From positions 1 through 64,000 of the forward strand of contig VGOW01000012.1 of NCBI GenBank assembly GCA_016875735.1: 64,000 bases of DNA. The letters run 5' to 3'. This document shows, one piece after another, positions 43,216-45,688 of this stretch; within the stretch, counting starts at the first letter, position 1, and each line of letters opens with the position of its first letter. The translations under genes were made by a program, and so were the position numbers. The notes below the pieces were generated by a model. It saw nothing but the letters and a program-made list of their open reading frames with translations, was not told the DNA's origin and did not search any database. The DNA comes from Chloroflexota bacterium. GTDB lineage: Bacteria; Chloroflexota; Anaerolineae; Anaerolineales; VGOW01.

Positions 43216-43291
43216 CCGATTAATTGAAGATTAATGTGGCATGGCGTAATGGCCGCTGCAATTGCGATACTATTCATGCAGGAGCAACGCC

Positions 43292-44251
43292 ATGTCCACA
43301 TCCTTCCGAATCCCCTCCTCTGAAATCACGCCCGAACATCTTTATTTGACCCGGCGCGACTTCATCAAAAGCATGGGCATCGCCGCCGGATCCATGGCGC
43401 TGGCCGCCTGCGGCGCAGCGCCCTCGACCAGCACAGCCAGCACGCCCGCGCCGAACATCAACGCCAGCGCCGCCACCGACGAACTCGGCGATCCTCTCAC
43501 GCCGCACGAAGTCGTCACCGGATACAACAACTATTACGAATTCACGACCGACAAAGAAGATGTTGCGCCGATGGCGAAAGACTTCCCCACCTCGCCGTGG
43601 GAAGTGGCAGTCGGTGGGCTGGTGAAGAATCCGAAAACGTACATGATGGAAGACCTGCTCAAGTTCGAGCAGGAAGAACGCATCTATCGTTTGCGCTGTG
43701 TCGAAGCGTGGTCGATGGTCATTCCATGGGTTGGTTTCCCCATCTCAAAACTGCTCAACGAAGTGGAGCCGACATCCGACGCAAAGTTTGTCCGCTTTCA
43801 GTCCATCTACGCGCCGGAGAAAATGCCCGGCCAACTAAGCGGCTGGTATGAATGGCCCTACACCGAAGGCTTGCGCCTCGACGAAGCGATGAACGATCTC
43901 GCCATCTTCGCTACCGGGCTGTACGGCAAGCCGTTGCCTCCGCAAGACGGCGCGCCCATTCGAGTCGTCGTTCCGTGGAAGTACGGATTCAAAAGCATCA
44001 AAGCCATCGTCAAGATCGATCTCGTCGATGTCAAACCCACTTCGCTATGGATGGCCGCCGCCTCCAACGAATACGGCTTCTACGCCAACGTCAACCCCGA
44101 TGTGGATCATCCGCGCTGGTCGCAAGCCACCGAGCGCCGCATCGGCGAACTGAGCCGCCGCCCCACCCTCAAATACAACGGCTACGAAGAACAAGTTGCC
44201 GATCTCTACGTGGGCTGGGATGATCGCTTGGACACGAAAACAAGTTCTTGA
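43292..44251 (+). CDS. msrP: MsrP, molybdenum protein-methionine-sulfoxide reductase (Tat lipoprotein)
   Basis: The 319-residue protein is the catalytic subunit of the MsrPQ system, which reduces oxidised methionines in exported proteins. It has a Tat signal (R21-R22-DFIK) that runs into a lipobox-like ALAAC with Cys40 and a Thr/Pro/Ala linker, so the mature enzyme is probably lipid-anchored. The molybdopterin ligand is Cys136 in YRLRCVEAW, followed by [11 protein letters not shown] and [10 protein letters not shown] of the family. AGGAG lies 8 nt upstream. It starts a four- or five-gene operon. Confidence 0.95.
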
Positions 44252-44252
44252 G

Positions 44253-44936
44253 ATGGATCGTCCGCTCGTTCACATCCGCGCATGGGAGCGATTGCCCGAA
44301 ATAAAATTCTCCGCCGCGCAGATCATCATCCATCTCGGATCGTGGGCGCCGCTGCTCATTTTGATCTACGGTGGATTCACGAACGGGCTCACCGTCAACC
44401 CCATCCAACACCTCACCTTTTACACCGGCGACACCGCCATCCGATTGCTCATTCTCTCGCTGGCCTGCACACCGGCGAACACGCTCTTCGGATTCAGGGA
44501 AGCGATCAAACTTCGGCGACCACTCGGAGTCTATGCCGCTATTTACGCCGCCATCCATTTTGGCATCTTCCTCTTCGACTACGGCTTCGATCCTAATCTT
44601 CTCTACGAGGCGATCTTCGAGAAACGATACGCGCTCATCGGTTTTGCCGCGCTCATCATCCTCCTGCCGATGGCGCTCACCTCCACCAAAGGCTGGCAAA
44701 AACGGCTCGGCCAAAACTGGAAGCGCCTTCATCAATTCGTTTATCTCGCCGGGCTGCTGGTCGTGATTCACTATGCGTGGCTCGTCAAGTCCGACATTCG
44801 CGCCCCGCTCATTTACGGCGGGATCGTCGTTGCGCTTCTCATGGCGCGCATTCCTGCCGTGCGCCGGATTGCTGCCTCGGCGCGAGGGCGGGTTGCTCAC
44901 AAATTGTCGAACACCGGAAAGGAGGTGAGAGGATGA
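44253..44936 (+). CDS. msrQ: MsrQ, heme membrane subunit
   Basis: The 227-residue ferric-reductase-like protein has about six membrane helices with histidines placed for heme: ...YAAIYAAIHFGIF, KRLHQFVYLAGLL and VIHYAWL. MsrQ carries quinol-derived electrons to MsrP. It begins one base after the msrP stop and its own stop overlaps the ATG of the thioredoxin-like gene (ATGA at 44933-44936), so the three are translated together. The first residues are MDRPLVHIRAWERLPE; an upstream frame is only a shadow. Confidence 0.94.
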   Translation: MDRPLVHIRAWERLPEIKFSAAQIIIHLGSWAPLLILIYGGFTNGLTVNPIQHLTFYTGDTAIRLLILSLACTPANTLFGFREAIKLRRPLGVYAAIYAAIHFGIFLFDYGFDPNLLYEAIFEKRYALIGFAALIILLPMALTSTKGWQKRLGQNWKRLHQFVYLAGLLVVIHYAWLVKSDIRAPLIYGGIVVALLMARIPAVRRIAASARGRVAHKLSNTGKEVRG

Positions 44937-45469
44937 AGAAAGCGATGTTCGCGCTTGCGGCATTGGCGATGTTTGTCGCCGCATGTGGCTCTTCGGCAAC
45001 ACAACCCTCGGCGGCAACTGTTCCGCCTGCCGCCACTCAAACGCCCACGGTCGTGCAGAGCCAACCCGCCGAGTCGGCCAGCAACACGGTGGCGGCCGCC
45101 ACTCAGGCGCCCGCCCCCACCGCCGCGCCAGCCGTCACGATCAAAACGGATTTCACGCCAACGGATCCGTCAACCGTCAATCTTGCGCTGGGCAAGCCGC
45201 AGTTGATCGAGTTCTATGCCGTTTGGTGAACTACTTGCAAAGCATTGAAGCCCATCGTGCATGGGCTCGAAGCGAAGTACGGCGAGCGAATTCAGTTCAC
45301 CTATCTCGATATTGACGATCCGAACACGAGCGAACTCAAACGCGCGCTGGGCTACCGCGTCCAGCCACACCTTTTCCTGCTCGACGGAAACGGCGGCGTC
45401 ATTCAGCAGTGGCTTGGCTTTGTGGCCGAAGAGGAATTCGTGGCCGCCTTCGAAGGCGTATTGAAGTAA
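44933..45469 (+). CDS. Candidate selenoprotein: thioredoxin-like lipoprotein with UxxC active site
   Basis: The frame runs 98 codons to an in-frame TGA (45227-45229) and continues in the same frame to TAA at 45467-45469. Read through, it gives 178 residues: lipoprotein signal with Cys18 (FVAAC), an Ala/Pro/Thr linker (about 20-68) and a thioredoxin fold. The TGA replaces the first active-site cysteine: EFYAVW-U99-T-T-C102-K, followed by IQFTYLDIDD, the cis-Pro strand RVQPHLFLLDGNG and a C-terminal helix. A SECIS-like hairpin follows at 45249-45267. It is coupled to msrQ, so it may bring reducing power to exported methionine sulfoxides or partner proteins. A nonsense mutation or sequencing error is the alternative. 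Confidence 0.75.
45249..45267 (+). promoter_or_regulatory. Candidate bacterial SECIS element
   Basis: AGCCCAT (45249-45255) and ATGGGCT (45261-45267) form a perfect 7-bp stem with loop CGTGC. The loop begins 26 nt after the UGA and has G at its second position. This meets the known bacterial SECIS requirements (apical loop 16-37 nt from UGA, G in the first two loop bases). SelB binding is predicted, not shown. Confidence 0.65.
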
Positions 45470-45487: not shown

Positions 45488-45688
45488 ATGGACAATCTTG
45501 AAGACATCTGGCAAGCGCTGCTTTCGGAAGATCGAGGATTGATCCGCCGCGTGTGGGGCGACCTCACCGATGAGGAGGCCAAAGCGGTGATCACGCACTT
45601 GCGAAAGATTGTCGAGGACGAAACGTACAGCGAGGAACAGCGCCGCGCGGCGCAGGCCGCGCTGGATGCAATCCACGAAGCAGGGTAA
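45488..45688 (+). CDS. Small hypothetical acidic protein
   Basis: The 66-residue protein (MDNLEDIWQALLSED to ALDAIHEAG) is acidic and fully helical by pattern, with no cysteine and no membrane segment. GGGGAG lies 8 nt before the ATG, 18 bp after the stop of the thioredoxin-like gene, so it probably closes the MsrPQ operon. A HEAT-like repeat reading (EEAKAVITHLRKIVED, EEQRRAAQAALDAI) is possible. Function unknown. Confidence 0.75.
   Translation: MDNLEDIWQALLSEDRGLIRRVWGDLTDEEAKAVITHLRKIVEDETYSEEQRRAAQAALDAIHEAG

Follow-up and report, generated by a model that had tools for sequence, protein, structure and literature searches.

This locus raises the question of whether a TGA codon inside a lipoprotein gene is read as selenocysteine (Sec) and, if so, in what process the product takes part. 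The gene lies on the forward strand at positions 44933-45469 of the window, a 64,000-nucleotide stretch of contig VGOW01000012.1 from an Anaerolineales bacterium of the Chloroflexota. As the initial annotation had described, its sole in-frame TGA (45227-45229) stands at an active-site Cys position, and the frame continues for 79 sense codons to a TAA stop (45467-45469). Decoding of the TGA as Sec would give a product of 178 residues containing Sec99 and Cys102. The sequence preceding the ATG at 44933 contains an AGGAGG ribosome-binding site (44920-44925, forward strand) at a spacing of 7 nt. Ordinary gene calling breaks genes of this family in two at the UGA, yielding a short lipoprotein and a domain without its head.

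The predicted product runs MKK...VAAC...EFYAVW-U-TTC-K, such that the UGA occupies the place of the first Cys of a WCxxC motif, and the active-site peptide around Sec99 reads LALGKPQLIEFYAVW-U-TTCK. Translation and homologues together mark the TGC codon at 45236-45238 (forward strand) as encoding Cys102, the resolving cysteine of the resulting UxxC motif. Residues 1-18 (MKKAMFALAALAMFVAAC) have the character of a lipoprotein signal, judged by eye, and end in a VAAC lipobox whose Cys18 codon (44984-44986, forward strand) is the predicted lipid attachment site. This by-eye assignment agrees with the lipid anchor proposed earlier, and among relatives with an N-terminus present, most show a lipobox-like Cys. 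Residues 19 to approximately 68 form an Ala/Pro/Thr-rich linker that is modeled with low confidence. Overall, we consider it very probable from the sequence evidence that the TGA is read as Sec and that the product is a lipid-anchored, thioredoxin-like protein.

The source genome (4.15 Mb, 97.8% complete) encodes the machinery that Sec insertion requires: a tRNA-Sec with anticodon UCA, SelB, SelA (552 bits), and SelD (383 bits), whose gene also contains an in-frame TGA, were all found. TGA is an ordinary stop codon for 7 of the 11 window genes checked, including msrP and msrQ, which implies that any recoding at 45227-45229 is site-specific. The selD gene (L115, G000:C2:124118-125059) itself encodes a selenoprotein; past its UGA lies a possible hairpin, CCCCAA-GUU-UUGGGG, which was read by eye and differs from the minimum-energy fold. 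The same genome contains a second thioredoxin-superfamily selenoprotein gene (L140, G000:C55:17621-18217). Its product is DsbG/Rcas_1661-like and has a U-P-F-C motif with the TGA present, a strong hairpin follows the UGA, and it reaches 166 bits with the NF041057 model, whose cut-off is 190.

A candidate bacterial SECIS hairpin, AGCCCAU-CGUGC-AUGGGCU, follows the UGA of the selenolipoprotein gene (45249-45267, forward strand), within codons for the conserved residues PIVHGL. Its 7-bp stem is formed by arms at 45249-45255 and 45261-45267, and the CGUGC loop occupies 45256-45260. The hairpin starts 19 nt and its loop 26 nt past the UGA, G is at loop position 2, and the element folded alone has an energy of -9.2 kcal/mol. 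Published limits for bacterial SECIS elements are a stem of 4-16 bp, a loop of 3-9 nt with G among its first two positions, a distance of 16-37 nt from the UGA, and an energy of -7.5 kcal/mol or lower (PMC13188914). The hairpin (5-nt loop, 7-bp stem, 26 nt, -9.2 kcal/mol) falls within all of these limits, which upholds its earlier assignment by bacterial SECIS rules. No Rfam family matches it, and a scan of the window with a SECIS model of the family detected no second convincing site (next best E 0.13).

Comparison of homologues indicated that this hairpin is maintained together with the UGA. The stem lies at a constant distance from the UGA across UGA genes, and 43 of these 45 genes can form five or more of the six pairs, compared with 2 of the 15 Cys genes (p 2e-9; p values serve as guides, because related sequences are not independent). 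All six pairs form in 34 genes, compared to 1.3 expected from synonymous codons (maximum of 6 in 500 trials). The covariation score was 0.306 for 40 distinct rows vs 0.177 in shuffles, four of the six pairs vary on both sides, and the signal was abolished when the partner was slid by one to three columns. The clearest sign of a SECIS is a coupling between codons: an AUN codon (Ile or Met) is joined two codons on by CAU or GAU (24/24), and the counterpart of a GUN codon (Val) at that spacing is CAC or AAC (21/21), a coupling that protein constraint cannot account for. The invariant GU of the loop was left out as evidence, because it overlaps the conserved Val codon. When the 51 nt that follow the site were scored by raw folding energy, Sec genes were poorly separated from synonymous shuffles (median fraction of 0.27); discrimination worked by counting pairs at the fixed stem. 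A further sample comprised 20 loci, 18 of them outside the order; its 18 UxxC members and one UxxU member all have at least five of the six pairs.

Exactly one TGA is present at the site in most top matches among 120 relatives, nearly all from the same order. The 62 loci that were detailed divide into 40 UxxC, 5 UxxU, 15 CxxC, one SxxS, and one AxxS forms. Alignment thus placed a UGA at the site in 45 of the 62 order-level loci and Cys in 15. Frames past the UGA are intact in relatives, at 57-68% amino-acid identity and with an excess of third-position changes, which answers the concern that homologues might end at this codon. Among 298 genomes searched at class level, 46 reach E 1e-22 or better, most of them showing a single TGA, and every match at this threshold in a phylum sample of 301 genomes falls in the same class.

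The form of the gene follows the Sec machinery. SelB and/or SelD was found in all 38 genomes with the UGA form, whereas all 8 genomes lacking both proteins carry CxxC (Fisher p 7e-6). The five UGA genomes without SelB contain SelD and are drafts estimated to be 76-90% complete. Nevertheless, seven genomes with Sec machinery use Cys, implying that Sec is not essential. Parsimony gives approximately four Sec-to-Cys changes, only one of which is forced by well-supported branches; this count is not firm, because the order-level tree, built from 115 columns, is poorly resolved. The stem has been lost in Cys genes of the f14 group. By contrast, the stem is still there in the Cys gene of G116, whose genome has Sec machinery, as expected for a recent Sec-to-Cys change. 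Repeated exchange of Sec and Cys, with decay of the hairpin in Cys forms, makes this family a clean natural experiment on Sec loss.

These comparisons make selenoprotein status near certain and bear directly on other explanations of the TGA. A nonsense mutation, leaving a pseudogene, or a wrong base called in a true Cys codon would fit the occurrence of Cys homologues at the same site. However, the same TGA codon recurs in dozens of independently assembled genomes with intact downstream frames and a covarying hairpin, and we rejected mutation, pseudogene formation, and sequencing error on the basis of this conservation as scarcely credible. Equally hard to credit is the decoding of UGA as some other amino acid, whether through an altered genetic code or plain readthrough. 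The open frame past the UGA is what such decoding would produce, but TGA terminates neighboring genes, the residue that replaces it in homologues is Cys rather than Trp, Gly, or Arg, and the hairpin, selA, selB, and selD genes, and tRNA-Sec accord with Sec insertion; this explanation was also dismissed.

Another view takes the short lipoprotein without its domain as the main product and the UGA as a selenium-sensing switch. A 98-residue lipoprotein plus linker would indeed be expected whenever Sec is scarce. Nonetheless, UGA-free Cys forms are retained in genomes that lack Sec machinery, which implies that the full domain is the selected product, and we regard regulated truncation as improbable. 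The preferred reading is that the product is a thioredoxin-like selenoprotein, lipid-anchored and located outside the cytoplasm, whose mRNA has the SECIS hairpin inside its coding region; conservation, hairpin, and machinery all suggest that SelB and Sec-tRNA(UCA) decode the UGA as Sec99.

We next consider the family to which this selenoprotein belongs. The thioredoxin fold proposed initially was borne out by a PF00085 match above the gathering score (42.1 bits vs a cut-off of 23.5) and, in agreement, by PDB fold comparison, in which nearly all top matches are thioredoxins or thioredoxin fusions, with TM-scores by target mostly of 0.7-0.86. The structure model, calculated with Cys in place of Sec from an alignment of only three sequences (mean pLDDT of 57; 63-83 in the domain), has a thioredoxin fold with residue 99 directly ahead of a helix formed by residues 100-116. 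More specific models place the protein outside named families. The selenolipoprotein falls below the cut-offs of the thioredoxin equivalog TIGR01068 (44.9 bits vs 96.8), of NF041057 (19.5 vs 190), and of the TlpA (26.2 vs 230), ResA (19.2 vs 170), and DsbE (29.0 vs 123) models. No NCBIfam selenoprotein model attains its cut-off with this protein, and no A3 member matches NF041057 at E 1e-5 or better.

The protein nonetheless resembles known systems. Like Sec-containing thioredoxins (PF00085, UxxC; PMC13188914), it combines a thioredoxin fold with Sec in the first redox position and a resolving Cys. Unlike them, it has a lipid anchor, a long linker, and its own conserved P-x-VHGLE segment, and it lies outside the cytosolic thioredoxin equivalog. 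NF041057, the DsbG-like Rcas_1661 family, is likewise named for a thioredoxin-like (seleno)lipoprotein with UxxC and is already on record from Chloroflexota (PMC13188914); however, its model is longer (247 positions), in addition to the far sub-cut-off score. TlpA, ResA, and DsbE are also membrane-anchored, thioredoxin-like thiol-disulfide oxidoreductases of the outer face, but they have Cys where the selenolipoprotein has Sec. UxxC thioredoxins have been recorded before, as has a thioredoxin-like selenolipoprotein, and this family therefore belongs to a known kind. The initial claim of a new selenoprotein thus holds for the family, which is unnamed, well supported, and spread through the sampled class, but not for the kind of protein. 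We found no published description of the family or of a selenoprotein in a CsoR-CopA operon, a weak result given that the search covered few subscription journals.

Neighboring genes point to possible functions of the selenolipoprotein. Directly upstream in the window are msrP (43262-44251, forward strand; NF003767, 448.5 bits, cut-off of 207) and msrQ (44253-44936, forward strand; NF003831, 153.2 bits, cut-off of 130), and the TGA stop of msrQ overlaps the start codon at 44933 (ATGA). The gene is thus in a translationally coupled unit with msrPQ, and co-expression with methionine repair is probable in the source genome. This tight coupling is also what would be expected of a dedicated MsrPQ partner that delivers electrons to MsrPQ, or works only with it, in methionine repair outside the membrane. 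However, tblastn detected neither msrP nor msrQ near the other 61 order-level loci (flanks of approximately 6 kb per side where the contig allows), such that the adjacency occurs at 1 of 62 loci. In a genome of the same genus (G001), the order is histidine kinase, zinc-ribbon protein, selenolipoprotein gene, etfA, and etfB, with msrPQ missing; the window has the same flanking order, with flank genes named by eye, but includes msrPQ. MsrP is a molybdenum enzyme supplied by MsrQ haem, and it requires no thioredoxin. Hence, the initial description of the protein as MsrPQ-linked is right for this locus, where msrP and msrQ are real neighbors, and wrong as a family trait: the two systems share gene adjacency in the window, with no homology and no conserved link, and a partnership with MsrPQ is unlikely to be the function of the family. 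Immediately 3' of the selenolipoprotein gene is a 66-residue ORF (45488-45688) with no Pfam or NCBIfam match.

A different context recurs elsewhere in the order. Families f6, f7, f8, and f14 carry, downstream of the gene and on the same strand, genes for a CsoR-like repressor and a CopA-like copper P-type ATPase (21 loci in 20 genomes). TlpA-like and Lgt-like genes are often upstream of these loci, and genes for L,D-transpeptidase-like (by eye), CcdA-like, and TlpA-like proteins are found further downstream. This association is limited to the four families, where it largely reflects inherited gene order, and it is missing from the locus of the source genome and from most class-level loci. A CcdA-like gene adjoins a TlpA-like gene in the source genome. 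Because the CsoR-like and copper ATPase genes follow the gene in four families, thiol reduction on the outer face near copper handling is likelier than dedicated partnership with MsrPQ. A copper-related function is favored because TlpA acts on the copper chaperone ScoI and on CoxB, reducing both before metallation (PMC6696091). Even so, a copper-related role read from gene order is only a tentative proposal.

In the mechanism that we envision, Sec99 and Cys102 would act as the redox pair of the UxxC motif, where helix 1 begins. Sec99 would attack a disulfide in a client protein, Cys102 would resolve the intermediate, and electrons would be restored from the membrane side, most likely via a CcdA/DsbD-like carrier. 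Gene order at the family level suggests that the client reaction may be a thiol reduction that serves copper handling or the assembly of copper sites, in parallel to the action of TlpA on ScoI and CoxB. Through this family, a connection of selenium with thiol and copper chemistry on the outer face becomes testable.

Some members of the family contain two UGAs in a UxxU motif: L107, L108, L109, L110, and L111, all from family f9, and L134 (G317). These members have a single hairpin, which lies 26 nt from one UGA and 17 nt from the other. Both distances fall within the known limits of 16-37 nt, so a single SECIS might be enough for the two codons. It is conceivable, though doubtful at this stage, that the family supplies selenium-dependent thiol reduction on the outer face to a copper-handling system composed of the selenolipoprotein, CsoR, CopA, TlpA, and CcdA, in which some members have a double-Sec UxxU center served by one SECIS. 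If so, selenium use in Anaerolineae would be tied to copper homeostasis or to the assembly of copper oxidases.

Irregular copies were also observed. At L095 (G018), the frame seems to shift across the active-site region and return, with the UGA dropped, reflecting sequencing error or decay. L064 and L086 are degenerate copies in which both redox residues are gone (AxxS and SxxS). The AxxS copy is in tandem, directly ahead of a UxxC copy in G054, and the SxxS copy is in a CsoR-CopA context in G120.
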